The position numbers were made by a program, and so were the translations under genes. Of a stretch of DNA of 64,000 bases, positions 5,006 through 31,240 are shown in pieces (position 1 is the stretch's first letter; the number at the start of each line of letters is the position of its first letter). The notes below the pieces were generated by a model, which was not told where the DNA came from, ran no database searches, and saw only the letters and a program-made list of their open reading frames with translations. The stretch is from Succinispira mobilis DSM 6222 (lineage in GTDB: Bacteria; Bacillota; Negativicutes; Acidaminococcales; Succinispiraceae): assembly GCF_000384135.1 (NCBI RefSeq), contig NZ_KB913028.1, positions 1,143,351 to 1,207,350 on the forward strand, in the 5' to 3' direction.

Positions 5006-5100
5006 AATTATATTAAACTGTTAAATAGCTTTGTTTGTAATTTGCAACAGACAAGGTGAGTATAAACTATATACTAATAGTAGAGTAAAGGAGTTTTTTT

Positions 5101-6576: not shown

Positions 6577-6597
6577 TAAAATTTTGAGGTGGATATT

Positions 6598-11417: not shown

Positions 11418-12423
11418 AAAACAGAAAAAATTTGTGAGATTTTTGTTTATAACTTTTTTAGCTATAATTTTAACTTTCATTTTAACTGCTTGCAAAACAA
11501 GTTCAGAGAAAGAACAAAAAGTTGCTAATTTTAACTATCAGGTGACAGATGTCCAAGGAACAGTGGTGAAGTTTGAGAAAAAACCAGAAAGAATTTTGAC
11601 TTTGGCAATGGGCACAGATGGAATTGTTTTAGGTTTAGTACCACCAACTAGATTAGTTGGCGTAAATCATCTGTTAGATGATCCTAATAGTTCTAACATC
11701 GTAGCTAAAGCGAAACAAATCCCAACTAAGATTAAAAATCCTACAGCCGAACAAATCTATGCTTTGAAGCCAGATGTAGTTATTGTCCCGAACTGGGGAA
11801 AGGCTGAGATTGTAGATAATTTACGCGATTTAGGTTTAAAGGTAGTGGTTTGTAAAGGGGCAAGTACCATCGAAGAAGTTCAAGAAAATGTACTCTTAAT
11901 TGCACGTACTTTGGGTGAGGAAGCAAAAGGGTTAAAACTTGTTGAGAAAATGAAAGCAAAATTGCAAGAAATAGATGCTAAAGTAATTAAAATTTCACCT
12001 GCACAAAGAAAAAAAGTCGTTTTGATTTCTTTGATGGCTTCATATGGCGGAATAGGTAGCTCGTTTGATGCCATTTGTACGCGGGCTGGAGTAATAAACG
12101 GTGTTGCTGAAGCGGGGATTAAAAATGGTCAAATTTTAGGTAAAGAGCGCTTGGTAGAAGTAAATCCTGATTTTTTAATTTTGCCAGTGTATAATGATCA
12201 TGGTAATTTTGATATTAATAAACATAATAATGAATTTCTCCTAGATCCGTCCTTACAAACTCTGACAGCAGTTAAAGAGCGGAAACTGTATTACCCGCGC
12301 GAAGGTTACATCTACAACGTTTCTCAAGATATAGTTTTTGGTGTCCAAGAATTAGCTTACGCCGCTTATGGAGAAAGTTTTACCCAGCCTGCTGATTGTC
12401 ATCTTTCTGTAGCGGAAGAATAA
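11407..12423 (+). CDS. btuF: BtuF-like ABC transporter substrate-binding lipoprotein
   Basis: A periplasmic binding protein of the cobalamin/haem/siderophore class. It begins with a lipoprotein signal (hydrophobic stretch and lipobox LTAC at about residue 27) and has the two-lobe helical-backbone fold pattern: PERILTLAMGTDGIVLGLV and LKPDVVIVPNW. The start at 11407 has GAGG six bases upstream and overlaps the end of the CobN-like gene by 11 bases. No permease follows it here; it probably shares BtuC (24996) and BtuD (27142). A second BtuF-like protein is encoded at 24027. Confidence 0.88.
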   Translation: MMDRKQKKFVRFLFITFLAIILTFILTACKTSSEKEQKVANFNYQVTDVQGTVVKFEKKPERILTLAMGTDGIVLGLVPPTRLVGVNHLLDDPNSSNIVAKAKQIPTKIKNPTAEQIYALKPDVVIVPNWGKAEIVDNLRDLGLKVVVCKGASTIEEVQENVLLIARTLGEEAKGLKLVEKMKAKLQEIDAKVIKISPAQRKKVVLISLMASYGGIGSSFDAICTRAGVINGVAEAGIKNGQILGKERLVEVNPDFLILPVYNDHGNFDINKHNNEFLLDPSLQTLTAVKERKLYYPREGYIYNVSQDIVFGVQELAYAAYGESFTQPADCHLSVAEE

Positions 12424-12485: not shown

Positions 12486-12512
12486 CAAAATAATTTTGGA
12501 AAACTTAATATC

Positions 12513-12682
12513 AAGTAGGCGCCATAAGGCTTAATTGGGAAATCGGTGTAAATCCGATGCGGTCCCGCCACTGTAATGCGGTTAAATAATTTTGACAAGC
12601 TGTCTAATTAAATTAACCCTAAGTCAGCAAAACTACCTACTTTTTACCATATCCCTACGAGCGATAGGGAGGTAGGTGCAAT
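12513..12682 (+). promoter_or_regulatory. Cobalamin riboswitch upstream of the TonB receptor/NifHDK-like operon
   Basis: A very clear aptamer: AAGGCTTAATTGGGAA, GGTGTAAATCC, GCGGTCCCGCCACTGTAA, CTAAGTCAG and the hairpin CCCTACGAGCGATAGGG (12653-12669). The interval 12424-12820 holds the MerR-type promoter, this aptamer, its terminator and the ribosome site. Confidence 0.95.
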
Positions 12683-12734: not shown

Positions 12735-12820
12735 GTGTTTTTGTTGCCAGTTATGACTCTGCAAGATGAGATAAATGGGAACTTAACAAATATAAAATGA
12801 TTTCGAAAGGAAGTTTATTA

Positions 12821-14764
12821 ATGGCTTATTTAAGACGAGGTAAAATCAAATTAACGCAAGGATTATTTTTAAGTGCTCTTATTCTTAGTAGTATTTGTTC
12901 CGGTAAAGTGCAGGCGGCTGAGGTTGATCAATTAGAAACTTTTGCTCTAGATCAAATTGTGGTTACGGCAACTCGAAGCGAAAAACGTGATGTAGATGTC
13001 GCTGCTTCCACTACGATTTTGACGGCAAAAGACTTGCAAAATACAGGTGCAAGCAATATTCAAACAGCTCTTGCCAAAGTTCCAGGTCTTGCATATAAAA
13101 CTTTTGGACCAGGTGGCTCTGCATTTGGGACAATGTCCAATGAAATAACTATTCGTGGGGTTAGTAATGGTACGTTAGTTATGATTAATGGCTCGCCGAT
13201 TAATCTGCGGGGCAAATATTATTTAGATTCTATTCCTGTGGAAAATGTTGAGCGCGTAGAAATTATCAAAGGTGGCGGCGCAGTACTTTATGGTAGCGAA
13301 GCCATGGGTGGCGTAATTAACATTATTATGAAAAAAGAATTTGCAAATAGCATTACAGCTGGCGTAGGTAATTATGGACAGCAAAAATACGATTTAACGT
13401 TGAACGCAGATAAACTAAATGTCGGCTATAATTTAGAAAAATGGGGTAATGTAAACACCATTTCTAAAAATACAGACAAAGGTAATAAACACACAGATGC
13501 TACTGGTTCAGAAAAAAACAGTATTTTAATGGAATATAACTTCAATGATAAATTACAACTGATGTACAATTATTTAGAGACAGAGGCTAGCTATGATACT
13601 TGGTTTGATGGTGCTTATAAATCAGTTCCAGCAACGGGTAGTTTGCAACAAAATCGTAAATATGGCACAAAACAAAATGTTGTTCAACTAAATTATACAG
13701 ATGATAATTTTAAAGCAAAAGCTTATTATAATCAAAATAAACTTACTGCCGACGGCTTTACGAAATATGACACTTCAGGGAATTTAAAGAACACTATTTA
13801 CGATACTGATGAAAAAAATAGAACTTATGGAGTAGATTTACAAAAAAATTGGGATTTAAATACTAGAACCAAAACAATTTTAGGATTTACTTACCAAAAC
13901 GAATTTTATACAGATTACAGTACTAAAAAATATGATCGCAATAATTTAGCTTTTTACGGACAATGGGAACAAAAGTTAAGCGACTTAAATACTTTAAGCT
14001 TAAGTGCTCGTGAAACTTGGACAACTGGCGCGCCAGGAGATCAAAACTATAATAATTTTAGTGCTCAAGGCCAGTTGAGTCATAAACTAGCAGAAAATGA
14101 AAATCTTTATGCTAGTGTAGGTCAGTCCTTTATCATGCCAACTTTCGCTCAAATGTATGGCTCAAGTGATACAGCAATTCCTAATCCTGGTTTAAAAGAG
14201 CAGACTGGCGTTAATTATGAAATGGGTTGGAAAAAAATCTCTGGCGACCATAGTTGGAAAATGGCTGTTTATCACATTGACATTACAGATAATATAAGTG
14301 CGAAGTGGAATAAAACTAAAAGCAACTATACCTATAGTAATGAAGACTTTATTAATACTGGTTTAGAACTTACAGCGGATATTCATGATCAAAATGGTTG
14401 GAGCTATAATTGGGGCATAAACTTAAGTAACCCTAAAGCCAAACAAGAGGGCTCAGATTGGGATAGAAAATATGGTAAATTACAAGTAACTGGTGGCGTG
14501 ACTTATGCGAAAGATAAGTGGAGAAGCAGTTTGACAGGAAGCTATATGGGTAAACGGGTGGCAGCACCAAGTTCAGAAAAATCTAGCGCCTTAAAACCAT
14601 ACTTTTTAACTAGTTTAACCACAACTTATATTTGCGATAAAAATAGTGAAATCACTTTAAGCTTAGAAAACATTTTTGATAGAAAAGACATTTTAAATCA
14701 TTCTGGTTCAGAGTATTATGCTACACCGTTTAACTTCTTATTGAGTTACAATTATAAGTTCTAA
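12821..14764 (+). CDS. TonB-dependent outer-membrane receptor
   Basis: A receptor of about 647 aa with a signal peptide ending in KVQAAE, TonB-box-like DQIVVTATR, a plug domain (VPGLAYKTFGPGG, VEIIKGGGAVLYGSEAMGGVINIIM) and a C-terminal barrel ending in NYKF. The start at 12821 has AAAGGAAG eight bases upstream; an ATG at 12797 has none. It is first in a long operon that continues to 27095, under a cobalamin riboswitch. The ligand is probably a corrinoid or other tetrapyrrole, but this is inferred from context only. Confidence 0.92.
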   Translation: MAYLRRGKIKLTQGLFLSALILSSICSGKVQAAEVDQLETFALDQIVVTATRSEKRDVDVAASTTILTAKDLQNTGASNIQTALAKVPGLAYKTFGPGGSAFGTMSNEITIRGVSNGTLVMINGSPINLRGKYYLDSIPVENVERVEIIKGGGAVLYGSEAMGGVINIIMKKEFANSITAGVGNYGQQKYDLTLNADKLNVGYNLEKWGNVNTISKNTDKGNKHTDATGSEKNSILMEYNFNDKLQLMYNYLETEASYDTWFDGAYKSVPATGSLQQNRKYGTKQNVVQLNYTDDNFKAKAYYNQNKLTADGFTKYDTSGNLKNTIYDTDEKNRTYGVDLQKNWDLNTRTKTILGFTYQNEFYTDYSTKKYDRNNLAFYGQWEQKLSDLNTLSLSARETWTTGAPGDQNYNNFSAQGQLSHKLAENENLYASVGQSFIMPTFAQMYGSSDTAIPNPGLKEQTGVNYEMGWKKISGDHSWKMAVYHIDITDNISAKWNKTKSNYTYSNEDFINTGLELTADIHDQNGWSYNWGINLSNPKAKQEGSDWDRKYGKLQVTGGVTYAKDKWRSSLTGSYMGKRVAAPSSEKSSALKPYFLTSLTTTYICDKNSEITLSLENIFDRKDILNHSGSEYYATPFNFLLSYNYKF

Positions 14765-14866: not shown

Positions 14867-16780
14867 ATGCGAAACAAGAAAAAAACCTTGCTACTAGCTG
14901 TAGCTTGTTGCAGTGTTTTTTATACAAGTCAAGTGTCTTTAGCAGCAGAAAGGCAAGAACTAGAAACTTTTGCCTTAGATCAAATTGTGGTTACGGCAAC
15001 GCGGAGCGAGAAAAAATTGGTTGATACGCCTGCAAATGTTACGGTAATTACAGCTGAGGAAATCACGCGCAAAGGTTATCAATCAGTTACGGAAGCTTTA
15101 GAAAATGTACCTGGAGCAATTGTCACTAGTAATGGTTTTGTGGGCTCAGAACAACATGTGTTATTAAATGGTGAAGAACGGGTGCTTTTTTTAGTAAATG
15201 GCCGACGGATGAACCTTGATCGTGGTGGCGGGCATGGCCGACAAGCTTTTGATTTACGTTCTTTACCGAATATAGGCGCTATTGAAAAAATTGAAGTTGT
15301 AAAAGGTGCTAGCACTACTTTATATGGAACGGATGCCGTAGGTGGGATTATTAATATTATTACCAAAAAAGGTGCGGCGCAAGTAGCAAGTTTAGATGTA
15401 AGCAGTGGTTCTTGGGGAACAGAAAATTATAAATTAGCTGTAGGTGGCAAAACTAATGCCGGCTTAGGTTACTATGTAACGTTAAAAAAATCAGAACAAG
15501 ATTATGTTAAATTTAAAAAAGTTAAAAATAATCAAGAAATTAAGTGGGCGAATACTAGTTATGAATCAACCGCAGCTACAATTCGCTTAGATAAACAATT
15601 TGATGCCGATAAAGCAGCAACTTTAACTTTTGAGCACAGTATTGCAGATGCAGGTCAGCCTTATAATCCGCCAGGTTTTTCAGGGTTCAAAGCTACAGAT
15701 ACATCCACGATTTTAGATAACAATGTGATGGCTAAATACGAATGGGGCTTAAGTGGCGATAATAAAGGTTTTGTGCAAGTATTCCGCAACCATAATGTTG
15801 GTAATACCTATAGCTCTACTAGTCACAGTACTTATACTGAAGAAAAAGATGGTTTAGCATTGCAACAAGCTTGGCAAACTAGTACAAGCAATCAAATTAT
15901 AGCGGGGTTTGATGCCAATAATTCTAAAGTAAATAACACTAGCTCTTTTGTAGAAGAAAAAGAAATTAAAACAAAAGCTTTTTATTTGCATGATACTTGG
16001 AACTTTACAGATAGCTGGCAATTAAACGCTGGGGTGCGTTATGATAAACATAATTATTTCGGACATGAAACTACAGCTAGTTTGGCTTTAAACAAAAAAT
16101 TTACTGATACTAGTAACGCTTACATTTCTTGGAATCAAATTTTCAATGCCCCTAATGGCAATGATTTATTTTATAATAGCTCTTGGGCAAAAGGTAATTT
16201 AAATCTTAAACCAGAAACTGGGGATGTAATTTCTCTAGGCTACAATGTTCAAGCATCTGCTAGTACTAACATCAGTATGAGTTATTTTAAAAGCGAAATT
16301 AAAGATGCTATAGATTGGTATGATGCAGGTACTTATTGGACCGTTAAGAATGTTAATAAACAAAAGAAAGATGGTTTCGAATTATCAGTAAATCATAAGC
16401 TTTCAGAAAAGTGGACAACTTGGGCAGCCTATTCTTATGTAAATGTTAAAAATAGTAAGTCCGATGCTCCTTTTGAACGAGATTTAACTGTTCGACCTAA
16501 TAACTATAAAATAGGTTTGCGTTACAATCAAGAAAAATTAAATATTGAACTATTAGGGCGAATTTCTTCTGGCTTAAGTAATAAGCAATATGCCGAAGAA
16601 AATTATTTAACTTTTGATTTAAGCGCTCAATATAAATTTAATAAAAACTCAAAAGCTTATTTGAAAGTATATAATCTAAATAATGTAGCTTATAGTGAAA
16701 AAGCTGGTATTGCCAATGGAGAATATAGTTTTCCAATGCCAGGTAGATCAATTTTAGTCGGCATGGAATACGCATTTTAG
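14867..16780 (+). CDS. TonB-dependent outer-membrane receptor
   Basis: A 637-aa receptor with a signal peptide ending in SLAAER, the same LETFALDQIVVTATRSEK segment as the preceding receptor, a plug (VPGAIVTSNGFVG, IEKIEVVKGASTTLYGTDAVGGIINIIT) and a barrel ending in GMEYAF. AAGAGGAGCG precedes the ATG. Apart from the N-terminal segment it differs from its neighbour, so the pair probably does not bind the same ligand in the same way. BtuB-like by context. Confidence 0.92.
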   Translation: MRNKKKTLLLAVACCSVFYTSQVSLAAERQELETFALDQIVVTATRSEKKLVDTPANVTVITAEEITRKGYQSVTEALENVPGAIVTSNGFVGSEQHVLLNGEERVLFLVNGRRMNLDRGGGHGRQAFDLRSLPNIGAIEKIEVVKGASTTLYGTDAVGGIINIITKKGAAQVASLDVSSGSWGTENYKLAVGGKTNAGLGYYVTLKKSEQDYVKFKKVKNNQEIKWANTSYESTAATIRLDKQFDADKAATLTFEHSIADAGQPYNPPGFSGFKATDTSTILDNNVMAKYEWGLSGDNKGFVQVFRNHNVGNTYSSTSHSTYTEEKDGLALQQAWQTSTSNQIIAGFDANNSKVNNTSSFVEEKEIKTKAFYLHDTWNFTDSWQLNAGVRYDKHNYFGHETTASLALNKKFTDTSNAYISWNQIFNAPNGNDLFYNSSWAKGNLNLKPETGDVISLGYNVQASASTNISMSYFKSEIKDAIDWYDAGTYWTVKNVNKQKKDGFELSVNHKLSEKWTTWAAYSYVNVKNSKSDAPFERDLTVRPNNYKIGLRYNQEKLNIELLGRISSGLSNKQYAEENYLTFDLSAQYKFNKNSKAYLKVYNLNNVAYSEKAGIANGEYSFPMPGRSILVGMEYAF

Positions 16781-16847: not shown

Positions 16848-17630
16848 ATGAAAATAGGTTTATTACATTTAAATCTGAGTTTAGGCTCAGAAGCTAAAAA
16901 CTTAAAAATTTTGGCACAAGCAATTGAACTAGCTAGTAAAAAAGGTGCGAAGTGGCTGATAACTCCTGAAACAGCAGTACAGGGCTATTATTTTTATCGG
17001 CAAAACCCTAATAGCAAAATTGAACCACAACCTTCAGCTAAGTTAGAACAAATCCAGACGATTGTAAAACAATATCAATTAACTTTATTTTTAGGCACTA
17101 GCGAATATGTTAAAGAACAAGCATGTAATTTTAATACCTGTTTAGTTTTTGGCAATAATGGCGATGTAATCGGGCGACATAGAAAGTTAATTTCACATGC
17201 TACTGGGGCAGAAGCTTGGGCTACGAGAGCTAGTTGTTTAGAACCGATTTCTGTGTCACAACAGTTTAAAGTAGGTGCTTTAGTGTGTGCTGATGCATGG
17301 TATCCAGAACACGGAAAAATTTTGCGTGACAAAGGGGCGAAAATTTTAGTTAATATAGCTGCCTGGCCGCCGACAGAAACTTGTGGCAATCCGTTAACAG
17401 CTTGGCAACGTTGTTCTTTAGAAGCTGAATTACCCTTAATTTTATGTAACCAGACCGGAGAAAATCCTTGGATGAATATGACTCAGGCGCAGAGTGTTGT
17501 TATTGAAAATGGGGAAGTTAAACTAACTCATTCGGGGGAAGAAAAAATATTGCTTTTTGATTGGGATTTTGAAAAAAATTGTCTGATTTCAACAGCTTAT
17601 GAAAAAATAGAATTTAAATATAAGGGGTAA
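16848..17630 (+). CDS. Carbon-nitrogen hydrolase (nitrilase superfamily amidase)
   Basis: A 260-aa cytosolic enzyme with the family triad visible: Glu41 ([10 protein letters not shown]), Lys113 (GRHRKLISH) and Cys147 ([10 protein letters not shown]). Members hydrolyse carbon-nitrogen bonds, mostly primary amides or omega-amides. GGAG precedes the ATG, and chlI starts four bases after its end. Position between TonB receptors and chelatase subunits suggests a side-chain amide of an imported tetrapyrrole, such as a corrin acetamide, as substrate. That is inference; a general omega-amidase role cannot be excluded. Confidence 0.85.
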
Positions 17631-17634
17631 GAAA

Positions 17635-18660
17635 ATGAAAAGAAAAGTAGTATATCCATTTACGGCGATTGTAGGTCAAGAAGATATGAAACTATCGTTA
17701 ATTTTAAATGTAATAAACCCATCTTTAGGTGGGGTATTGATTAAGGGTGAAAAGGGTACTGCGAAATCTACTGCAGTAAGAGCGTTAGCTGAGCTTTTGC
17801 CAGCGATGCCAATGGTAGATGGTTGTAAATTTAATTGCGATCCTAGTGCTGTGAATAATTATTGTGAAGCCTGTAATGAGCAAGTGAAAAACAGCCAAAG
17901 TTTGGCACAAAAAAATGCTAAAATGCGTGTGGTAGAATTGCCAGTAAGTGCGACAGAAGATCGAGTTGTGGGAACTTTGGATATTGAGCATGCAATTAAA
18001 CATGGAGAGAAAAAATTTGAGGCAGGAATTTTAGCACAAGCGAATCGCAATATTCTCTATGTAGATGAAATAAATTTGCTTGATGACCATGTAGTAGATG
18101 TGTTGCTAGATGCAGCAGCTATGGGTATTAATACCGTAGAACGTGAAGGTATCTCTTATTCGCATCCTGCTAGGTTTGTACTAGTAGGAACAATGAATCC
18201 AGAAGAAGGTGACATTCGCCCCCAACTCCTGGACCGTTTTGGGCTTTCGGTAGTAGTTGTAGGCGAGCATGAACCACAACAGCGAGTTGAAGTAATAAAA
18301 CGTCGCTTGGCTTATGAAGAAGATCCAGAGGTGTTTGCGCTAGAATATCAAACAGAACAAGAAGCTTTGGCGGCTAAAATAATGCAAGCTAGAGTAGTAT
18401 TACCCCAAGTTCAAATTCCAGAACCTTTATTATTTAATGTAGCTAAACTAGTAGTTGAATTGGGTGTAGATGGACATCGAGCTGATATCACGGTAATTAA
18501 AGCAGCATTAACTTTAGCTGCTTTTGCCGGTCGCAAAGTCGTAGAATTAACCGATATCAAAGATGCCGCAAAATTAGTATTACCACATAGAATGCGTAGA
18601 AGACCTTTTGAAGATAGCGTTTTAGACTGGAGCAAAGTGGAAGCCTTGTTGGATAATTAA
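17635..18660 (+). CDS. chlI: ChlI/BchI-type AAA+ chelatase subunit
   Basis: The motor ATPase of a magnesium/cobalt-type chelatase, 341 aa. The Walker A motif is GEKGTAKST (38-46), Walker B is [11 protein letters not shown], and the family signatures [11 protein letters not shown] and [20 protein letters not shown] follow. Cysteines 64, 68, 77 and 80 (CKFNC, YCEAC) form a likely zinc or cluster site, as in several ChlI-like proteins. It should form hexamers with the ChlD-like protein and drive the CobN-like subunit at 7704. Confidence 0.92.
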
Positions 18661-18675: not shown

Positions 18676-20622
18676 ATGAGTATAAATAAAAAGTTTTCTT
18701 TTAGTGCAATTGTTGGTCAAGAACTAGCTAAAAAAGCTTTGCTAATAGCGCTTATTAATCCTAAAGCAGGAGGCTTAATTATTTCAGGTAAAAAAGGAAC
18801 GGCTAAAACTACGTTAGTGCGTTCTATAGCACAACTAGCAAGGCAAAACTTGATAGAAGTGCCTTTAAATGCTACTGAAGATATGATCTTTGGTAGCATA
18901 GATTTAGAAGTTGCGCTTGCTAAAGGACAGAAAAAATTTTTGCCAGGAATTTTAGCTAGAGCAAATAAGCACTTAATTTATGTAGATGAGTTAAATCTAT
19001 TAAGACCAGAGTTGCTGACAGCTATTTTAGATACCAATATTCGCGGGGAAAATATAGTGGAGCGTGACGGTTTATCTTATACGCATACGACAAATTATGT
19101 GTTTTTAGGAACTATGAATCCAGAAGAAGGCGTTCTTTCAGCTCAAACTCTAGATAGAGTAGGTATGTATATAAATATCGATAATGAATTAGACATCGAA
19201 AACCGCGTAGAAATTATTAAGCGAGCCTTGGCTTATAGCAACAATCCGCTAGGTTTTAATGATAATTACCAAGAGGCTGATCAGAAAGTTTTAAGAACAA
19301 TAGAAAAAGCTAAAGAAATATTATCTGAGATTAAAATTTCTGAAGCAATTGTACAATTAACTGCGCAATTTTGTGCTCAAGCTTACTGTGCAGGTCATCG
19401 TGGTGAGCTATATTTACTAGAAGTTGCTAAAACTATAGTAGCTTTAGCCGAGCGAAATTATATTTTACCAAAAGATCTAGAGGAAGCCGCGGTACTAGTG
19501 TTAGCACATCGCATGCGTAAACCACCAGAAAATCAAGATGAACCCCAAGACCAAGATGAACCCCAAGACCAAGACGAACCTCAAGATCAAGATGAACCTC
19601 AAGACCAAGATGAACCTCAAGACCAAGATGAACCTCAAGACCAAGATGAATCTCAAGACCAAGATGAACCGCAAAATCAAGATGAACCTCAAAATCAAGA
19701 TGAACCGCAAAATCAAGATGAACCGCAAAATCAAGATGAACCTCAAGAGCAAGATGAACCCCAAGATCAAGATAATACAGCAGACATTGATAAATTGTTT
19801 AATATGCCTAAAATTGAATTAGATATAGCCACAGACCGCAAACTTAGGCGGGGTAGTGGCAAAAGAAGCTTAACAAAAACTGATTTAAAGCAAGGGCGTT
19901 ACGTTCGTTCAATTATACCCAAAAATAAATTTCTTGATTTAGCTTTTGATGCTACACTCAGAGCAGCAGCACCTTTTCAAAAAAGCAGAGCTTTAAATAA
20001 AGTAAGTGGCTGTTTTTTTGATATCAGAAAAGAAGATTTGCGCCAAAAAGTGCGCGAGAAAAGAGTTGGCAATACTTTTTTATTTTTAGTAGATGCAAGT
20101 GGTTCAATGGGAGCAAAAGAGCGAATGCGAGCAGTTAAAGGGGCTATTTTTTATATGCTACAAGAAGCCTATCAAAAGCGGGATCGTGTAGGCATGATAG
20201 CTTTTAGACGAGATAAAGCTGAAATTCTTTTGCCAATTACACGGAGTGTAGATTTAGCACAAAAATGCCTCCAAACTATGCCAACTGGAGGAAAAACGCC
20301 CTTAGCAGCTGGTTTAAATGCGGCGAGTGAAATGCTGTATTTACAAAATAAGCGTGATAGTGATTTAGAACCAGTACTAATTTTAATTACCGATGGACGT
20401 GCTAATTCGGCGGGTGAAAATATTAATCCGGTAGAAGCAGCAATTCAAGCTGCTAAGTATCTTGCAGAGCAACAAGTTAAAACCTTAGTTATTGACACCG
20501 AGACAGATTTTATAAAAGTAGGAATAACAAGAAAAATTGCTCAAGAAATGGGCGCTACTTATTATCAAATTAACAAATTATCACAAGAGAGTGTGTTGAA
20601 AATAGTCCGAAACATACTTTAA
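18676..20622 (+). CDS. chlD: ChlD/BchD-type AAA+ and VWA chelatase subunit
   Basis: A 648-aa protein in three parts. Residues 1-280 are an AAA+ domain with an apparently intact Walker A (GKKGTAKTT) and [11 protein letters not shown], while many ChlD proteins have lost this site. Residues 286-367 are an acidic hexapeptide-repeat linker. Residues about 385-648 include a VWA integrin-I domain with MIDAS motif DASGS (about 470) and [18 protein letters not shown] precedes the ATG. It is the platform subunit bridging ChlI and the CobN-like protein. Linkers in ChlD/CobT are usually acidic and proline-rich, but such a regular repeat is striking. Confidence 0.92.
19531..19776 (+). repeat. 18-bp tandem repeat coding for the ChlD linker
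   Basis: About 13 in-frame copies of an 18-base unit coding for Q-[DNE]-Q-D-E-P plus a partial last copy. Copies differ mainly by silent changes, apart from one P-to-S change and D/N/E variants. Unit length keeps the frame, so copy number could vary without disrupting the gene. Open frames on other strands here are artefacts of the repeat. Confidence 0.95.
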
Positions 20623-20644: not shown

Positions 20645-21457
20645 ATGAAAAAAATAGCTATATATGGCAAAGGCGGAATTGGTAAATCTACAACTTCAGC
20701 GAATCTTTCGGCTGCTTTTAGTGAAATGGGTCATAAAGTTTGCCAAATAGGGTGTGATCCTAAAAACGATTCTACAAGATTGCTTTTGGGTCGTATTTGT
20801 CGGGAAACAGTGTTAGATATGGTACGCGAAAGTGAAGATGGAGAAGTAACTGCGGCACAGATTATTCATACAGGTTTCAATGGTATTCAATGTGTAGAAG
20901 CAGGTGGACCTGAGCCAGGTGTGGGTTGTGCTGGACGAGGTATAATTGTAGCTTTGGAAAAAATTCGCGCTTTGGGAGCGATTGCTGAGGAGCAACTAGT
21001 AATTTATGATGTATTAGGTGATGTAGTTTGTGGTGGCTTTGCCGTGCCAATTCGCGAAGGTTATGCTACAGATATTTATATAGTTTCTTCAGGTGAGCTA
21101 ATGTCACTATATGCGGCTAATAATATCGCCAAAGGTATTCAAAAATTCGCTAAACGTGGTAAAGTACGCTTGGGTGGTATTATTGGCAATGGACGCAACA
21201 CGGAAAATGAACTTGAAGTTTTAACAGAATTTGCAACCAAAATCAACTCAAAATTAATTATGTATATTCCTAGAGACAAGGTTGTTAATCAGGCAGAGGT
21301 GCAAAGAAAAACTGTTATTGAATGGGCTCCAGAATCGAATCAAGCGGATATATATCGCACTTTGGCCAAAAAAATGGATACCAATGAGGACTTAAGAATA
21401 CCAGAACCCCTTTCGTTTGAAGAATTAGAAGAGTTGGTTTATAAGTATGGCAATTAA
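20645..21457 (+). CDS. NifH/BchL-like iron-sulfur ATPase (reductase component)
   Basis: A 270-aa P-loop ATPase of the nitrogenase iron-protein family. It has GKGGIGKST (8-16), the switch GCDPKNDST (36-44), and the two cysteines that bind the bridging [4Fe-4S] cluster in the dimer: Cys95 (GVGCAGRG) and Cys129 (DVVCGGFA). It passes electrons, with ATP hydrolysis, to a NifDK-like partner, whose genes follow with overlap. GTAAGGAGG precedes the ATG. Sequence alone does not assign it to NifH, BchL, CfbC or other branches. Context (chelatase subunits upstream, B12 transport downstream) points to a tetrapyrrole substrate rather than N2. Confidence 0.92.
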
Positions 21458-22745
21458 AACAAAACGCTATATTAATAAAGCAATAAGCTGTAGCTGTAGC
21501 ATGCCAGGTGTTTGGCGTGCTACTAGCTATATACAAGGTGGACTAGTTGTTTTTCATAGTCCTAAGGCCTGTTCACATATTACCCAAGTTATGGATAACA
21601 GTGCTTTTTTTCGTTCTAAAGCTAGAGATGAGTATTATGAAACTTTGCAACCAGTACCACTTATTTGTAGTAATTTAACGGATGATAATTCTATTTTTGG
21701 TGGGGAAAAAAAACTTAAGCAGTGTTTAGAAGCAGTTATGAGCAAATATCAGCCTAAATTTATTGTGATAGCAAATTCTTGTGTGGCAGGTGTAATTGGT
21801 GATGATATTGAGAGTATTGCCAGCACTATACAAGAAAAATATCAAGTTCCAGTATTAGCAATTCCGTGTTTTGGTTTTTTAGATGGTGAATATTATGCTG
21901 GATATTATCAAACAACTAGTCAGTTGATAAAAAAGTTTATACCTAAATCAGAAATTAAACAAAAAGACAGTGTGGTGCTAATTGGTGATAATGGTGGTCC
22001 AAACGGCGAATATGCTCGTGAAGTTAAAAGTGTTTTACATAAATTGGGTATTGCGGTTATTGGACAATTTCCTACATTTATGACTTTAGAGGCACTCCCG
22101 GAAATTGCAAAAGCTGAATATAGTATTGTTTTAGGTGGGCGAGGTTATACGCATAAATGGCTTTTGAAAATTGCTACAGATTTAAAGCAGCAATTAGCAA
22201 TTCCCTATTATGCACAGATATACCCCATTGGTTGGAAAAACACTAAACAGTGGATTCAGAATATGGGCGTACTGTTTAAAAAAACATCTATGGCCCAAGC
22301 CATTATTGCACAAGAAGAAATTAAACTTATGCAAGTTATAGATAGTTTAGCGGTGAAATTAATAGATAAACAGGCCGTATTATGTATTGGTCGCATGAGT
22401 AGCTATTTTTCACCTAATTGGATTTTAGAGTTATTGGCTTTGCTAAAGTTAGAGCTAAAGAGTATTGTATTGTTGGATGGCTATACAGAAAAAGAAAAAA
22501 AGTCAATGCAATTGTTGCTTAAACAAGAAACTACAGTACCGATAATATCTTTTGAGCAAGTTGCGAATCTTTCTGATTTAGCAGATTTGATTTTGACAAC
22601 CCATGAATTGCAAGATGATAAACATAAACAAATAATTTTACCCATGTTACCTGTTATTGGCGTTAGTGGGGAAATTGATTTTATTAATAAAATTTCTCAA
22701 ATTATTTCGCGACGGGGTATTAAAGGAGGGGTTGTTTATGGGTGA
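21447..22745 (+). CDS. NifD/NifE/BchN-like nitrogenase-family component 1 subunit
   Basis: A 432-aa protein whose ATG overlaps the NifH-like stop. Cysteines at 17 (CSCSMPG), 42 (SPKACSH) and 112 ([13 protein letters not shown]) fit the three cluster ligands of NifD/BchN-type subunits. [12 protein letters not shown] is the typical following motif. I see no counterpart to the FeMo-cofactor ligands of NifD (the Cys275 region or the RQMHSWDY histidine), so it is not a nitrogenase and could have an open substrate cavity as in BchNB or CfbD. It pairs with the next gene. Confidence 0.88.
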
Positions 22746-24024
22746 AAAATGGGAAAATATTTGTAGCAGTGTTAATACTTGTGCTTTAAACGGAGCCAGT
22801 AACTTTTTTGCCGGGATCCCTAAAGCTCATATTATAAGTAATGGTCCATTATGGTGTTATTTCTATGCATTACGCTATTTGGAAAAAAGTCATTTAGATT
22901 TAGATAATCGTTTTCAATGTGCGCAACTAGATAATAATGCAGTAGTTTATGGCACGGAAGCTTGCTTGCTAAAAGCTATAAATTTAGTTGATTCGATGTC
23001 TGAACCTGAACTTTTGGCTTTAGAAAACAGCTGTGCGATAAGTTTAATTGGCGATGATTTAGCAGGAATTGCCCGTAAGGCAAACTTAAAGTATCCAGTG
23101 ATAGATTTAGATACTGGAGGTTTAATAGGAGGATTTAATGAGGGCTATGTTTTAGCAAGTAAACGTTTATTTGAAAAAATAGGATTAAATAAAAATCTAG
23201 TTAAGAAAAAGAAACAGGTGAATTTGCTCGGCTGCACTTATGGGCATTATAATGCATATAACGATTTACAAGAATTACAAGCTATGTTGATAAAGGGCGG
23301 ATATACAGTTGGAGCAATTCCTGGTGCGGGGAGCAATTTGGATGCTATTAAAAATATACCTGCAGCCGAGCTAAATCTTGTGGTAAATTCCGAATTAGGC
23401 TTAGAGCTAGCTCAATTTTTAGAAATAAACTATCAAATGCCTTATTTAGAAATCGGCATGCCTTACGGAATCGGTGGCAGTATAAACTGTTTGAAAAAAA
23501 TTAAGCAGTATATAGACACAGACCTAAGTCAGATCATCGCTGAAGCTCAGACTAAAGAAAAGAGTATTTTAGCAGCTATTGGTGAACTAAAAAGTACTTG
23601 GGGCGAACTTTGGTTTGATACAGCAATTGTAGCTGGTCCTAGTAATATTGCGTTAAATATAGCGGAAGCACTTCGACTAGAATGGGCGGATATGGATAAT
23701 TTAATTGTTATTACTCATGATAATAAAACTCGAGAAAAATTGCATACGCAGGCAGATAAGGTTATAAATAGTAGCAGTAATGGCGAAGAAATAGAAGATA
23801 TTTTTGAAAACATTTCTAATAACTCCCTGTTTTTAGCTAGTAGTATTGAAAAAACTGCAGTAATGCGTCATAATATAACGCCTAAGGTTTTTTGCAACAT
23901 TACTTATCCAGTCCAAGATGAAATTTTGCTTACCAATAATCCTTTTGTAGGGATCAATGGTGCTGCTTGTATGTTAGAAAAAATTTGGAATCAAAAAATA
24001 AATGCGCAACTTTTAGGAAATTAA
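22738..24024 (+). CDS. NifK/NifN/BchB-like nitrogenase-family component 1 subunit
   Basis: A 429-aa protein overlapping the NifD-like gene by eight bases; GGAGGGG precedes the ATG at 22738. Cys15, Cys40 (GPLWCYF) and Cys99 (LENSCAISLIGDD) match the cluster-ligand pattern of the K/B side. Additional cysteines lie at 9, 61 and 76. YGTEACLLKAI corresponds to the FGG-type motif of the family. The D and K halves have diverged from each other, suggesting a heterotetramer as in BchNB, unlike the homodimeric CfbD. The catalytic residue (aspartate in BchB) cannot be assigned without alignment. Confidence 0.87.
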   Translation: MGEKWENICSSVNTCALNGASNFFAGIPKAHIISNGPLWCYFYALRYLEKSHLDLDNRFQCAQLDNNAVVYGTEACLLKAINLVDSMSEPELLALENSCAISLIGDDLAGIARKANLKYPVIDLDTGGLIGGFNEGYVLASKRLFEKIGLNKNLVKKKKQVNLLGCTYGHYNAYNDLQELQAMLIKGGYTVGAIPGAGSNLDAIKNIPAAELNLVVNSELGLELAQFLEINYQMPYLEIGMPYGIGGSINCLKKIKQYIDTDLSQIIAEAQTKEKSILAAIGELKSTWGELWFDTAIVAGPSNIALNIAEALRLEWADMDNLIVITHDNKTREKLHTQADKVINSSSNGEEIEDIFENISNNSLFLASSIEKTAVMRHNITPKVFCNITYPVQDEILLTNNPFVGINGAACMLEKIWNQKINAQLLGN

Positions 24025-24026
24025 CG

Positions 24027-24980
24027 ATGTTACTAAAAAAAACTATGGTTTTACTATTTTTGTGTATTTGGGGGATTATGAGTTCGGCTTGTGGTGTAAC
24101 AGATCCAAAAAAAATCACTAATATGGGCTATAAAGTGGTAGATGATACAGGGGTTGTTTTTTATATGCCCAAGCCACCGCAGCGAATAGTGTCTTTAACT
24201 TATGGGACTGATGAAATTTTATTTGGCCTAGTTTCACCCCAAAAAATAGTAGCGCTAAGTCGTTGGGCCGATGATACAAAAATAACTTTTTTGCAACCTA
24301 AAGAAGCAAGTTTGGTGCAAGGAAGAAGTTTAGAAAGTATGGAAAATATTTTAGGATTTAACCCAGATTTAGTTATTGTTTCGACAGCAACTAACCCAGA
24401 TTTAGTAAAAAATTTAAGACTTATGGATTTGAAAGTTTATGTGGCTTGTAGTCCGCAAAATTTAGAAGAAATGTCTGCTAAAATACAAGGCATTTCAAAA
24501 GTTGTAGCTGAAGAAACCAAAGGACAAATGCTTATTGCTCAGATGCAACAGCGGATTGATAAAGTTGCAACTAAATTGCAACCGCTTTCTCAATCCGACC
24601 GAAAAACTGTTATGGCAATGTCTTATATTGGTGCAATTGGCAGATCAGGGAGCTTACTAGATGTGATTTTCCAAAAAGCTAAATTGAGAAATTCTGCAGC
24701 TGAACAGGGTTTGAGTAAAGGTAGTTCCTCTTTGTCGAAAGAAAAAATTATTGCGGCAAATCCAGAAATAATTTTACTGCCTACTTGGAGTAGTGAAGCT
24801 GTGAATAATCCAGAAAATTATAAAAGTGAATTTCTCAAAGACCCTGCATTGCAAAACATTCAAGCGCTAAGAAATCGCCAAGTGTACATGTTTTCAGATA
24901 AATATCGCTATGTTGCCTCGCAGCATATTGCTGAATCAATAGAAAAATTAGCTCAGTTGGCTTATCCAGAACTGTTTTAG
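24027..24980 (+). CDS. btuF: BtuF-like substrate-binding lipoprotein
   Basis: About 317 aa with a lipoprotein signal (lipobox SSAC at about residue 22) and the cobalamin/haem-type binding fold (PPQRIVSLTYGTDEILFGLV, FNPDLVIVSTATNPD, NPEIILLPTW). TTAGGA precedes the ATG at 24027, two bases after the NifK-like stop. The permease BtuC follows, so this is the cognate binding protein. It is only distantly similar to the one at 11407. Confidence 0.9.
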   Translation: MLLKKTMVLLFLCIWGIMSSACGVTDPKKITNMGYKVVDDTGVVFYMPKPPQRIVSLTYGTDEILFGLVSPQKIVALSRWADDTKITFLQPKEASLVQGRSLESMENILGFNPDLVIVSTATNPDLVKNLRLMDLKVYVACSPQNLEEMSAKIQGISKVVAEETKGQMLIAQMQQRIDKVATKLQPLSQSDRKTVMAMSYIGAIGRSGSLLDVIFQKAKLRNSAAEQGLSKGSSSLSKEKIIAANPEIILLPTWSSEAVNNPENYKSEFLKDPALQNIQALRNRQVYMFSDKYRYVASQHIAESIEKLAQLAYPELF

Positions 24981-24995: not shown

Positions 24996-26030
24996 ATGAA
25001 TAATAATTGGCAAAAAAATGCCAAAATAATAATTGCCTTAATTATCGCCTTTGTAGTAGTAGCATGTATGTCTTTAATATGGGGGCAATTTGATATACCC
25101 TTAGCTAATGCTTTAGCAATAATATTTAGTGAAATTGGTTTTAAGGATTTATTACAAGTGCCTTTTACACCAGAACAGAAAGCAGTTTTATGGCATATTC
25201 GCTTGCCACGAACCTTAGTTGGCTTAATGGTAGGCGCCGCTTTAGCAATTTCAGGCGCAGTTATGCAAGGTTTATTTAGTAACCCTTTAGCAGATCCAGG
25301 CATTATTGGCGTATCTAGTGGAGCGGCGACAGGAGCAGTATTTGCTATTGCCTTAGGTTTGACTAGCTTAGGGATGTTTTATATGCCGATGTTTGCTTTT
25401 TTAGGTTCAATTTGTGCTGTAGCCATAACAGTTTTTTTAGCAATGCGTAATGGTAAAATACCGGTAATGACCCTGTTGCTGTCGGGAGTTGCCGTCGGGA
25501 TGTTATTAGGTGCAATGACCTCAGGCTTGTTGACTTTTATGAACGAACAAAAGCTACAGCAATATTTATTTTGGATGGTCGGAGGGCTAGATTATCGCCG
25601 CTGGGAACATGTTTACTTAGCGGTAGGGCCAATACTTATAGGTATTATAATTCTTTGCTCTTTAGGCCGACATTTAAATATTTTGGCTTTAGGTGAAGTA
25701 GAGGCTAGAGCGGTTGGGATGCCAGTGGTTCCTTTTAGGTTATTTTTATTATTTGTAGCCTCGTTGACAACAGCTACAGCGGTATGTGTAAGTGGCAATA
25801 TTGGTTTTGTGGGGCTGATAGTACCGCATATGATGAGGATGATGGTCGGACCAGATCATCGAGTTTTATTGCCAGTTACAGCATTAGCTGGTGGGATGTT
25901 TTTAGTAGCCTGTGATACTTTAGGGAGAGTTATAATTCCACCAGCTGAAGTGCGGGTAGGGATAATGACTGCCTTACTAGGAACACCTTATTTTTTATAT
26001 CTTTTGCGCAAAATGCAAAACACTAAATAA
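24996..26030 (+). CDS. btuC: BtuC-like ABC transporter permease (FecCD family)
   Basis: A 344-aa polytopic protein with about ten membrane helices. It has the FecCD/BtuC signatures RLPRTLVGLMVGAALAISGA, QGLFSNPLADPGIIGVSSGA and GFVGLIVPHMMRMMVGPDHR. It carries B12, haem or siderophore-type ligands through the inner membrane. AGGAG precedes the ATG. The ATPase is encoded separately at 27142 on the other strand. Confidence 0.93.
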   Translation: MNNNWQKNAKIIIALIIAFVVVACMSLIWGQFDIPLANALAIIFSEIGFKDLLQVPFTPEQKAVLWHIRLPRTLVGLMVGAALAISGAVMQGLFSNPLADPGIIGVSSGAATGAVFAIALGLTSLGMFYMPMFAFLGSICAVAITVFLAMRNGKIPVMTLLLSGVAVGMLLGAMTSGLLTFMNEQKLQQYLFWMVGGLDYRRWEHVYLAVGPILIGIIILCSLGRHLNILALGEVEARAVGMPVVPFRLFLLFVASLTTATAVCVSGNIGFVGLIVPHMMRMMVGPDHRVLLPVTALAGGMFLVACDTLGRVIIPPAEVRVGIMTALLGTPYFLYLLRKMQNTK

Positions 26031-26036: not shown

Positions 26037-27095
26037 ATGGAGTTAATGAGAAAAAAAATAAAACTGTTAGTTTTAAGCTTAACTGGTGAATGTAATTTTG
26101 CTTGCGTGTATTGTTATGCCTCGGAACATCAAAGCCAAAAGATGAGTTTTGAGACAGCAGTAGCGGCGATAAATTTAGCATATCAAGAAGGGGAAGAGCT
26201 AGTATTACAACTAAGCGGGGGAGAACCGCTTTTAGCTTTTGAACTTATTGAACAACTTATTACATATATAGAAGCCAAGCAGCTAAAAATAAAAGTACAA
26301 ATACAGACTAATGCGTCGCTACTTACAGATAAAATAGCTAAATTTCTCTATGCACATAAAGTTGCTATAGGCGTTAGTTTAGATGGGCGCGCGCCAGTGA
26401 ATAATAAATTGCGTAAGTTAAAAAATGGTTCTGGTGCAACAGCAACAATTTTAGCAGGTATTGAAGTACTGCGTAGAAATAATATTGCTACAGGTATAAC
26501 ATGTGTAGTTACAAGCGAAAATGTAAATGATTTATTAGGTATAATCGAGATGGCTTACTATTTGGGTAATGTTCGAAAAATTGGATTTGATTTATTGCGT
26601 GGCCAAGGCCGAGGCGAAATGCTAGCTCCAGCTAGTGCCAGAGAACTAGATATAATATTGCCAAAGGTATATGCACTTACAGAACAGTTACACAAACTTA
26701 CAGGAATAAAAATAACTATTGCACAGCTAGAGCGGGTAGCTACATTGAATAAAGGAATTGATGAATATTTTGGACATTGTTATGCAATGAATGGGAACGC
26801 GATTTTTGTAGATGCTGGCGGCGACATTTATGCGTGTTCATCTTTGGTAGGTAATCAAGATTTTTATTTGGGCAATGTTTATAAGGGACTTTGCACAGAA
26901 TTACAAGCGCAGGTTGAAGCAAAAATCCGAACTAGCATGAATTTTTGTGAAAGCTGTGCTAGCTTTAAGCTCTGTGGCGGTGGGTGTTTTGCTCGTTGGT
27001 ATGGAAGCGGTGATAAACAACTATATGAAGCAGAATGTGCTTTAAAAAAGCAGTCGATAAAAAAATTTTTAAGTAAAAAACAATTAAACACATGA
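26037..27095 (+). CDS. Radical SAM protein with SPASM-type C-terminus
   Basis: A 352-aa enzyme with the radical SAM cluster motif C19-x3-C23-x2-C26 (CNFACVYC), the SAM-binding GGEP segment, and a C-terminal cysteine-rich SPASM-like domain (FCESCASFKLCGGGCFARW) for auxiliary clusters. Such proteins usually mature peptides or act as anaerobic sulfatase-maturing-type enzymes; some act on small molecules. It closes the NifHDK-like operon. No candidate precursor peptide is seen next to it, so a role in modifying the tetrapyrrole or a protein of this system is possible. ATG at 26037 or 26046 could be the start. Confidence 0.85.
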   Translation: MELMRKKIKLLVLSLTGECNFACVYCYASEHQSQKMSFETAVAAINLAYQEGEELVLQLSGGEPLLAFELIEQLITYIEAKQLKIKVQIQTNASLLTDKIAKFLYAHKVAIGVSLDGRAPVNNKLRKLKNGSGATATILAGIEVLRRNNIATGITCVVTSENVNDLLGIIEMAYYLGNVRKIGFDLLRGQGRGEMLAPASARELDIILPKVYALTEQLHKLTGIKITIAQLERVATLNKGIDEYFGHCYAMNGNAIFVDAGGDIYACSSLVGNQDFYLGNVYKGLCTELQAQVEAKIRTSMNFCESCASFKLCGGGCFARWYGSGDKQLYEAECALKKQSIKKFLSKKQLNT

Positions 27096-27141: not shown

Positions 27142-27978
27142 TTAGCAAACTTGACAACAGATTTTTTTTAATAAACTATTTTTTTGATGTTGTGTAGTCG
27201 CAGTTATTTGTGTAGTTATTTCAATCCCACCGGTTACAGGGTTTTTATATAAGCGTAGAGGAACCTTATAGGCTTGGCTTAGATTTTCCTCTGTAATTAC
27301 ATGATCTGGTGTTCCATCAACTACAACTCCACCGTTGGCAACTAACAGTAACCGTGAACAATATTTGTAAGCTAAGTTAAGATCGTGCACAACCATTAAA
27401 ATTGTTTTGCCCGCGTGTGCTAGAGTTTTGCAAAAGCTAAAAATATCTTCTTGATAAACAATATCTAAGCCTGTAGTAGGTTCGTCTAAAAAAAGCAGTG
27501 GCGTTTGTTGGGCGAGAACCTTAGCGAGCAAAATACGTTGTTTTTGTCCTCCAGAAACTTTATCCATGGTAGTATCTTGATATTGAATAATTCCAGTATA
27601 TTGCATGCAAGATTCAACTATTTCTGCATCTTCAGGACGTTCTTGTTGCCACCATTTTAAATATGGATAGCGCCCAGCGGTAACAATTTCTTTTGCTGTA
27701 TAACCAAAGGTTATTTCGACATTTTGCTGTAAATAAGCTACTTTTTTAGAAAATTCCCGCGCTGACAATTTTTCCACTTCAATATTATCGATTTTAACAA
27801 TACCATTTTGAATGGGCAAAAGCCCACGAATTGTTTTTAAAAGCGTAGTTTTCCCAGCGCCATTAGGTCCTATTATGCCAATTATTTCACCTGGATCTAC
27901 TTTAAAATTAACATTTGTAAGTATTGGTTTACTTTTATAACCAGCCGCTAAGCTAGATACTTCTAAAATTTTATTCAT
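27142..27978 (-). CDS. btuD: BtuD-like ABC transporter ATPase
   Basis: A 278-aa ATPase with Walker A GPNGAGKTT (about 39), Q-loop YLQQNVEITFGYTA, signature VSGGQKQRI and Walker B LLFLDEPTTG. It resembles the ATPases of BtuCD/FhuC-type importers and should power BtuC (24996). AAGAGGAG precedes its ATG. The C-terminus ends in an unusual cysteine-rich tail (KKICCQVC). It lies downstream of the CbiR-like gene under a cobalamin riboswitch. Confidence 0.92.
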   Translation of the reverse strand: MNKILEVSSLAAGYKSKPILTNVNFKVDPGEIIGIIGPNGAGKTTLLKTIRGLLPIQNGIVKIDNIEVEKLSAREFSKKVAYLQQNVEITFGYTAKEIVTAGRYPYLKWWQQERPEDAEIVESCMQYTGIIQYQDTTMDKVSGGQKQRILLAKVLAQQTPLLFLDEPTTGLDIVYQEDIFSFCKTLAHAGKTILMVVHDLNLAYKYCSRLLLVANGGVVVDGTPDHVITEENLSQAYKVPLRLYKNPVTGGIEITTQITATTQHQKNSLLKKICCQVC

Positions 27979-27994: not shown

Positions 27995-28933
27995 TTATTT
28001 AAAAGCGTTACGTTGTATTTTAAGGAGACTACTCAATTCTTGAAAATCATTGTAATACAATTCATGAACTAAGTATTGGGGCTGTATTAGGTTAATAATT
28101 TTTTTTAGTTCAGAATTTTGACAAGGGCGATGTTGGTCTATTTGGGTTATATGCTTAAATATCGGGGTGTTATTGGGAAATTTTTTTTCAAAACTTTTAA
28201 CGTAATATCCAGAAAGCGAACAACTTAAATGTACACCTTTTATTTGCTTGCAGGTTTCACCTAGCTGCTCAAGAACACTTAGCGCGTAGGCATAAGCCTC
28301 TACTTCATTTTGTAACTCGCAATTAGTATTCAGCAAATGACCTAAGTCGAGCATTATTCCGGTATGAGGATGATTTATTTGCGCTAAAAAACTATCTACT
28401 TGTTCTTTATTTGTTAGACGCAAACCAGGCCACCAGAGATTTTCAAATAATACTAAAGTAGTTGCGGGAATAATCTCAGCTATGGAATTAAACAGTTCTG
28501 TTGTACAGGCTAAAACTTCAGCATCAGAATAGCGAAAGTTCAAGGTAAATGCTTCTTGATAATCAGCATTTGCCACATGCCATACAAGGTATTCAGGGTT
28601 TAAAGCTAAAGCTGCCCTTATGTGATCTTTGATATAAGCAAGCCAAGCTTCAGTAGAAGTGGCGTTCCCAAAGTAACTTATAAGATCTTGTTGACAAGCA
28701 AATTGCATTTTCAGAGCTTCAGTATTATTATTCCAAAAATCCATCCAGAACGGCCAATATTTTAAATGTATACCTAAAATTTTATCAAGCGAATTGCAGG
28801 GCAAAGCATCATTTTTGTAAAGCATTAATTCAATTCCGTTTAAATTTTCTGCTTGAAGATAAGCATTAATGTCTAATAGAGGTTTAGGATTATGACCATG
28901 GGGCAATTCACAATAGTTTATTAGTTCTTTCAT
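27995..28933 (-). CDS. cbiR: CbiR-like cobamide-remodelling hydrolase (TIM barrel)
   Basis: A 312-aa protein of the xylose-isomerase/AP-endonuclease-2 TIM-barrel type. Barrel-strand residues are visible: GIHLKYWPFWMDFW, YLVWHVANADY, LVLFENLWWPG, IMLDLGHLLN and IKGVHLSCSLSG, with His, Glu and Asp that could bind a metal. CbiR of Akkermansia belongs to this superfamily and opens the nucleotide loop of cobamides. The position directly behind a cobalamin riboswitch and before btuD makes the same role likely here. The start at 28933 has GAGGAA upstream. An unrelated sugar-isomerase role is the alternative, but less likely. Confidence 0.7.
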   Translation of the reverse strand: MKELINYCELPHGHNPKPLLDINAYLQAENLNGIELMLYKNDALPCNSLDKILGIHLKYWPFWMDFWNNNTEALKMQFACQQDLISYFGNATSTEAWLAYIKDHIRAALALNPEYLVWHVANADYQEAFTLNFRYSDAEVLACTTELFNSIAEIIPATTLVLFENLWWPGLRLTNKEQVDSFLAQINHPHTGIMLDLGHLLNTNCELQNEVEAYAYALSVLEQLGETCKQIKGVHLSCSLSGYYVKSFEKKFPNNTPIFKHITQIDQHRPCQNSELKKIINLIQPQYLVHELYYNDFQELSSLLKIQRNAFK

Positions 28934-28948
28934 ATATAATTCCTCTGA

Positions 28949-28985
28949 AAAAATAAAAACCACCAAACTAAAGATTTAGTAGGTG
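28949..28985 (-). terminator. Riboswitch terminator before cbiR-like gene
   Basis: On the minus strand CACC-T-ACTAAA pairs with TTTAGT-TT-GGTG, followed by GTTTTTATTTTTT. Confidence 0.8.
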
Positions 28986-31007: not shown

Positions 31008-31047
31008 GAAGTGTAAATGTGAAACTAAAACTGAATAATATAAATTA

Positions 31048-31240
31048 TAGGTGCCCGTAAGGGCTTAATAGAAAAGTCCGGTAAAAACCGGCACGGTCCC
31101 GCCACTGTGATAGGGAGCGACTTTAAAGATACCACTGAGGAAACTTGGGAAGGTTAAAGAAGCGATGAACTAGAGTCAGGAGAACTACCCATAATTAATT
31201 ACCTTTGTACCTACGAGTGATAGGTGGTAATTGATAAAGG
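31048..31240 (+). promoter_or_regulatory. Cobalamin riboswitch upstream of exbB-exbD-tonB operon
   Basis: The aptamer shows GTGCCCGTAAGGGCTTAATAGAAAA, CCGGTAAAAACCGGCACGG, CCCGCCACTGTGA, AGTCAGGAGAACTACC and the hairpin CCTACGAGTGATAGG (31210-31224). It is longer than the others because of an extra arm after the B12 box. The interval 30859-31386 holds promoter, aptamer, terminator and the exbB ribosome site. Confidence 0.95.

Follow-up and report, generated by a model that had tools for sequence, protein, structure and literature searches.

The genes considered here, designated H, D and K and jointly HDK, are located in the genome of Succinispira mobilis DSM 6222, an organism of the same order as Phascolarctobacterium. 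The analyzed stretch, hereafter the window, comprises 64,000 nucleotides, i.e., positions 1,143,351–1,207,350 of the single-contig 2.085 Mb genome. Positions 20645–24024 (+) of the window contain three intact open reading frames (ORFs) encoding the H, D and K proteins of a nitrogenase-superfamily reductase; the start of D overlaps H by 11 nt, and that of K overlaps D by 8 nt. These coordinates, and the residue numbers used below, had been given in a preliminary description of the locus and proved correct. H matches the Pfam family Fer4_NifH (2e-108) and contains both features of the Fe-protein (NifH) superfamily, a P-loop and two bridging cysteines. D and K match Oxidored_nitro (5e-51 and 9e-47, respectively).

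Comparison with the functional NCBIfam models gave different pictures for the three proteins. H passes the nifH model TIGR01287 by about 1 bit (395.6 bits; cutoff 394.35) and reaches 381 of the 402 bits required by the CfbC model. D and K are far below the cutoff of every functional model (NifD/E/K/N, BchN/B/Z, CfbD, Vnf, and Anf), including TIGR01282/01286 (NifD/NifK) and TIGR03282 (CfbD); on the latter, the scores are 33 bits for D and 37 bits for K (cutoff 268), and the CfbD reference sequence scores 356 bits, above the cutoff. In Foldseek searches, the AF2 model of D (predicted local distance difference test score, pLDDT, 87) gave the methylthio-alkane reductase (MAR) structures 9fmg and 9d9u as best matches, and the matches of the K model (pLDDT 91) were spread about equally over Anf/NifK, BchB, and MarK. 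The fold alone thus does not settle the branch to which HDK belongs.

A phylogeny of 59 D/K-type sequences, including Nif, NifEN, Mar, Bch, and CfbD references, was constructed using IQ-TREE. All family D sequences form one clade (support 100/100), as do all family K sequences (100/99 or better), and both clades are placed outside all the Nif, NifEN, BchNB, BchYZ, CfbD, and Mar reference clades used. The preliminary description had set HDK apart from true nitrogenases, NifEN and known functional clades such as BchNB, and the tree bears this out. The deep branch order is unsettled, and the link of K to CfbD is weak (92/70), with a long branch. The family H sequences form one side of a branch in the H tree with support of only 93/81, close to NifH; hence, H alone cannot diagnose the system.

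The cluster-binding residues were compared in an alignment of 33 D and 34 K family sequences plus references. The references were taken from annotated plasmids (R. etli NifDKEN, Novosphingobium BchNB, Thiodictyon BchYZ, and Chlorohelix group IV-A), from sequences of related genomes, and, for MarDK, from PDB chains, with the ligand numbering and P-cluster cysteines of MarDK according to PMC12552129. Both cluster cysteines proposed for H, C95 and C129, are identical in 28 of 28 family sequences and in seven references. The candidate cluster cysteines of the other two subunits are essentially invariant: D C17, C42, and C112 occur in all 33 sequences, K C15 and C40 in all 34, and K C99 in 33 of 34. 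These six residues (3+3) align with the P-cluster columns of NifDK and MarDK. As the preliminary description had stated, the iron-molybdenum cofactor (FeMo-co) ligands of NifD are missing. The column of the FeMo-co/[Fe8S9C] cysteine (R. etli NifD C283 = Av C275; MarD C270) contains glycine in 27 of the D sequences, serine in two, threonine in two, alanine in one, and arginine in one, and that of the cofactor histidine (His442) is a gap in 33/33. The L-cluster cysteine of NifE, which occupies the same column as the NifD/MarD cofactor cysteine, is likewise replaced (G/S/T/A/R), so that neither the cofactor cysteine nor the clade membership of a NifEN maturase is found in D and K.

HDK had also been likened in architecture to BchLNB and CfbCD. 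The likeness stands insofar as HDK is a two-subunit nitrogenase-like reductase without cofactor ligands, but the equation fails at the cysteines, all six of the P-cluster type being present in HDK. BchB has an aspartate at the column of K C40 and a gap at that of K C15, and the CfbD reference has a gap at the column of D C17 and an asparagine at that of K C15. Dark-operative protochlorophyllide oxidoreductase (DPOR, BchLNB) and chlorophyllide oxidoreductase (COR, BchXYZ) share with HDK the lack of FeMo-co ligands and a two-subunit catalytic part, and K resembles BchB in fold. In DPOR, however, a [4Fe-4S] cluster is held by three cysteines of N and one aspartate of B, where K has a cysteine; K further has an extra third cysteine, the clades are separate, and HDK is far below the DPOR model cutoffs. 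K E219 is common to BchB, BchZ, and CfbD, i.e., the tetrapyrrole reductases, and is replaced by W/Y/F/H in the K-type references of Nif and Mar. As judged from the alignment, the combination of P-cluster-type ligands without a cofactor ligand is absent from all characterized relatives examined.

The preliminary description had noticed no nifB, nifE or nifN around HDK, which holds genome-wide: nifB is absent from the whole genome, and a search with D returns only D and K, with no other nifE/nifN-like gene. As NifB is missing here and in another 12 of the 20 HDK genomes tested, a NifB-derived cofactor is unlikely. Together with the absent cofactor ligands, the absence of nifB led to the rejection of nitrogen fixation as a role of HDK. 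That HDK is a relic nitrogenase, a NifEN-type scaffold or part of true nitrogen fixation is hardly credible: the narrow pass of H on the nifH model speaks for it, and the lack of nifB, nifE, nifN, and FeMo-co ligands, together with the separate D and K clades, refutes it as far as sequence can. Several H genes of the family exceed the nifH cutoff, by which the family comes to be mislabelled as nitrogen fixation. Indeed, a survey noted the oddity of "nifD without nifK" among reads of Phascolarctobacterium faecium and Selenomonas (PMC8597730); these are very probably misannotated members of the HDK family.

MarHDK (group IV-A) resembles HDK in its H-D-K set, its six P-cluster cysteines (PMC12552129) and the sequence and structure searches, in which it is the best match of D. 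HDK could accordingly be pictured as a group IV-A type enzyme cleaving a small organic molecule (C–S or similar), with an Fe-S cofactor held by other residues and a coincidental B12 context. Yet the [Fe8S9C] cysteine is lost, D and K are outside the MarD/MarK clades, most tested HDK genomes lack nifB, and no sulfur-metabolism genes were noticed beside HDK, the gene context being one of corrinoids and not of sulfur. This explanation is very improbable.

The window contains four cobalamin-type riboswitches according to Rfam (Table 1). The third heads the run TonB-TonB-nitrilase-ChlI-ChlD-H-D-K-SBP-BtuC-radical SAM (SBP, substrate-binding protein), in which the gaps up to the radical SAM gene are at most 142 nt. 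Positions 12500–27095 are likely to form one transcript; two small hairpins lie inside the run, at 14813–14843 and about 16788–16813. Elsewhere, a cobalamin riboswitch ends 74–364 nt before H in nine of 26 H loci (L035, L040–L043, L046, L048, L053, and L064), and in L049 and L056 one is located ahead of the operon. Since the 15 genomes with matches carry about 2–23 cobalamin riboswitches each, this placement is far above chance. No description of a cobalamin-riboswitch-controlled nitrogenase-like operon was found in the literature searched, which comprised papers available without subscription.

Table 1. Features of the window, with H, D, and K first; positions are counted from its first nucleotide.
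Feature	Position	Strand	Remarks
H	20645..21457	+	270 aa; Fe protein, NifH-like and ATP-dependent; P-loop; [4Fe-4S] cysteines C95 and C129
D	21447..22745	+	432 aa alpha-type catalytic subunit; C17/C42/C112; without FeMo-co Cys/His
K	22738..24024	+	428 aa beta-type catalytic subunit; ATG start; C15/C40/C99
TonB-dependent receptor (BtuB-like)	2810..4738	-	best NCBIfam TIGR01779 TonB-B12, 212 bits, below cutoff 599.7
Cobalamin riboswitch	4879..5018	-	ahead of - strand TonB receptor; RF00174 43.2 bits
MerR-family regulator	5101..5937	+	MerR_1 3e-14
AdoCbl/cobalamin riboswitch	6377..6515	+	ahead of CbiZ-CobN-SBP; RF01482 56 bits, gathering 50
CbiZ-like adenosylcobinamide amidohydrolase	6589..7689	+	366 aa; PF01955 6.5e-56
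CobN/ChlH-type class I chelatase large subunit	7704..11417	+	1237 aa; TIGR02257 cobN 953 bits, above cutoff 822
Periplasmic metal-chelate binding lipoprotein (BtuF/IsdE-like)	11404..12423	+	PF01497 6.5e-22
Cobalamin riboswitch	12500..12654	+	ahead of HDK gene run; RF00174 61.7 bits, gathering 31.5
TonB-dependent receptor (BtuB-like)	12797..14764	+	best NCBIfam TIGR01779, 162 bits
TonB-dependent receptor (BtuB-like)	14867..16780	+	best NCBIfam TIGR01779, 185 bits
Carbon-nitrogen hydrolase (nitrilase/amidase family)	16848..17630	+	PF00795 1.3e-24
ChlI-like chelatase ATPase	17635..18660	+	TIGR02030 442 bits, cutoff 467; TIGR02442 509 bits
ChlD-like chelatase subunit	18676..20622	+	VWA domain; acidic repeat linker; TIGR02442 637 bits; TIGR02031 446 bits
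Second periplasmic binding protein	24012..24980	+	PF01497 8e-23
BtuC/FecCD permease	24996..26030	+	PF01032 1.6e-98; best NCBIfam vitamin B12 permease BtuC, 312 bits
Radical SAM/SPASM protein	26037..27095	+	PF04055 4e-19
18-bp terminator-like hairpin	27095-27135		directly after radical SAM gene
BtuD-like ABC ATPase	27142..27978	-	best NCBIfam corrinoid ABC ATPase PRK09536, 251 bits
AP_endonuc_2 TIM barrel, probable CbiR-type cobamide hydrolase	27995..28966	-	PF01261 7e-8
Cobalamin riboswitch	31032..31206	+	ahead of ExbB-ExbD-TonB and ECF-like module; RF00174 94.9 bits

The preliminary description was right on the features of H, D, and K but missed these riboswitches and the surrounding corrinoid gene set. 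The class I chelatase set is complete in the window, comprising CobN and the AAA (ChlI) and VWA (ChlD) subunits. In the TIM-barrel protein of the AP_endonuc_2 family, a set of His/Asp/Glu residues is conserved across 25 homologues. The AP endonuclease 2 superfamily includes the cobamide hydrolase CbiR (PMC7733943), and the window protein is a probable CbiR. Homologues of the MerR regulator adjoin H divergently in several relatives. The ChlD-like protein contains a long acidic DEPQDQ repeat linker (window 19538–19822), across which a second frame is also open. Behind the riboswitch at 31032–31206, positions 34815–40372 encode a 547-aa protein without Pfam/NCBIfam match, a double energy-coupling factor (ECF) ATPase, a CbiQ-like T component, and a PQQ-like propeller; parts of this set adjoin HDK in L040, L042, and L043. 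In L181 (4170–9700; G000:C1:656169–661699), an operon for a two-subunit methylmalonyl-CoA mutase and MeaB stands behind a cobalamin riboswitch (G000:C1:662101–662277, -) and adjoins a second CobN gene as well as a nitrilase; it is odd to find a B12-sensing switch in front of an enzyme that itself needs B12. An apparent second, split methylmalonyl-CoA mutase is present at L183:9972–12049, and two molybdenum/tungsten cofactor riboswitches are located near a solitary D-K pair (L055:17967–18379).

Among 300 sampled Negativicutes genomes, D orthologues (30–48% identity) were found in 76, the carriers including Phascolarctobacterium faecium, Selenomonas noxia, Dialister succinatiphilus, Succiniclasticum ruminis, Sporomusa ovata, Pectinatus frisingensis, and Veillonella ratti. 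CobN is present in 71 of the 76 HDK genomes versus 34 of the 224 others (Fisher p 3e-36, without correction for phylogeny). In a survey of the genes lying no more than 10 kb from 58 main-clade D loci, CobN was found near 36, SBP near 39, BtuC near 35, TonB near 31, ChlI and ChlD near 27 each, CbiZ near 25, and a CbiR-like TIM protein and radical SAM near 21 each; the commonest extra neighbors are CbiK and the BtuR/CobA adenosyltransferase. Outside Negativicutes, Pelotomaculum propionicicum carries HDK in the order DUF4430 proteins, CbiQ-type ECF transporter, BtuR, H, D, K, riboswitch, SBP, BtuC, BtuD, CobN, and radical SAM. No relatives were found among viral contigs, and the family scan, limited to motifs, gave no Elusimicrobia match. 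The closest idea in print is that of Meheust et al. 2020, in which the nitrogenase paralogues (group VI) of groundwater Elusimicrobia are reportedly predicted tetrapyrrole reductases found with radical SAM genes. In Sporomusa ovata, the CobN gene beside HDK (L076:6556–8358) is broken up into three or more ORFs and has possibly decayed. The Methanomassiliicoccaceae archaeon COG_1 has two NifH-like/NifD-like fusions of 732 and 792 aa (L186:9552–11747 and L185:9540–11915), each beside a K-like gene.

The substrate had been left open in the preliminary description. The cobalamin riboswitches and corrinoid genes point to a corrinoid or cobalt tetrapyrrole. On balance, HDK is probably an ATP-dependent two-component corrinoid (cobalt-tetrapyrrole) reductase acting in B12-repressed corrinoid/cobalt assimilation, its putative substrate and reaction being read from the gene neighbors. 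At low cellular cobamide, the riboswitches would open, and imported corrinoid would be trimmed by CbiZ, CbiR, and the amidase. It would then bind in the D-K cavity, the site of FeMo-co in nitrogenase, where it would be reduced by low-potential electrons sent by H via the D-K cluster. Reduced towards Co(I), the cobalt would be ready for adenosylation by BtuR/CobA, for removal and re-insertion through CobN-ChlID, or for both. Adenosylation by CobA needs a reduced metal, as does reductive metal removal, and a cobalt-centered reduction is therefore somewhat more likely than a reduction of the ring. The latter would make HDK a ring reductase/cyclase, the cobalt counterpart of CfbCD. HDK would then convert (Co-)sirohydrochlorin or an imported macrocycle into a new reduced cobalt tetrapyrrole cofactor, for which CbiK or CobN-ChlID would give the metal and the radical SAM protein would edit the side chains. 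In every superfamily member with a known tetrapyrrole substrate (BchNB, BchYZ, and CfbCD), it is the ring that is reduced; CbiK genes adjoin HDK in several genomes, the radical SAM gene does so in 21 of 58 loci, and control by a cobalamin riboswitch would suit a substitute cofactor. CfbCD is a nitrogenase-like enzyme working with a metal chelatase, H is near the CfbC model, and K shares E219 and a weak tree affinity with CfbD. That affinity lies on a long branch, however, and CfbD is a single homodimeric subunit, whereas D and K are encoded by two genes in all main-clade loci examined and together carry six cysteines. CfbCD belongs to the F430 pathway and HDK to a bacterial B12 regulon, in which the neighbors serve mainly uptake and salvage; neither amidation/CfbE-type genes nor other genes of biosynthesis were noticed beside HDK. 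A ring reductase is thus unlikely.

Another imported metal chelate, such as a cobaltophore, haem or porphyrin, may also be considered, from which HDK would release the metal reductively. The model for such a reaction is HmuS, a CobN homologue that strips haem of its iron using NADH (PMC12583661). In Bacteroidota, HmuS/CobN-type dechelatase systems likewise combine TonB, ABC, and CobN-type proteins for an imported tetrapyrrole and require reduction; the TonB and SBP proteins of the window also match haem/siderophore models, and D-K pairs are accompanied by TonB and SBP genes of their own. In contrast to the HDK loci, with their ChlI/ChlD partners of the chelatase, HmuS systems need no ATP, contain no nitrogenase-like reductase and act on haem instead of corrinoid. 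The repeated cobalamin riboswitches and the CbiZ, CbiR-like, and BtuR neighbors also favor corrinoids; this explanation is improbable.

Several observations weigh against a corrinoid reductase. About a third of the D loci have no nearby chelatase gene, 14 of the 58 have none of CobN, ChlI, ChlD, CbiZ, radical SAM, and BtuC nearby, and several HDK loci have a divergent MerR gene in place of the riboswitch. The known tetrapyrrole reductases of the superfamily use [4Fe-4S] and not a P-cluster, and the TonB/BtuCDF-like parts could carry another cobalt chelate. In addition, de novo corrin synthesis is already provided for by an operon with CbiJ and CobA, so no known step is evidently missing: CbiC, CbiJ, a CobA, and apparent further cbi/cob genes are located in one operon, with CbiK elsewhere. 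With CbiJ and other cbi/cob genes present, the idea that HDK stands in for this precorrin-6 reductase is rejected. CbiC is present in 261 of the 300 Negativicutes genomes and in most HDK genomes. A role in salvage by B12 auxotrophs is thus not supported; HDK accompanies de novo corrin producers.

Several genomes (G142, G180, G225, G239, G245, and G093) contain one strong nifH-like gene and two or three D-K pairs each. The extra pairs without H are located in TonB-SBP-D-K-SBP modules (L059–L062), which suggests that the D-K subunits are matched to imported substrates; the several pairs that share one H would in that case represent variants suited to different imported corrinoids. L060 and L062 form, with L056, a distinct D and K subclade. 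A large Negativicutes genome (G083) has 28 nitrogenase-component-1-like matches, many of which are probably group IV paralogues. For the corrinoid reductase proposed here, we tentatively raise a more specific possibility, which we regard as doubtful: a P-cluster-type electron store may be coupled to corrinoid reduction together with CobN-ChlID, either for ATP-driven cobalt stripping or exchange or for an alternative cobalt-tetrapyrrole cofactor, with D-K families adapted to different imported corrinoids.

If HDK is indeed a corrinoid reductase, the nitrogenase superfamily would gain a B12-linked branch, and the customary pairing of P-cluster with Fe-S cofactor and of [4Fe-4S] with tetrapyrrole would no longer hold. 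HDK is carried by many anaerobic bacteria of the gut, mouth, rumen, and sediment, and it would also represent a new reductive step in the corrinoid or cobalt acquisition of common anaerobes.

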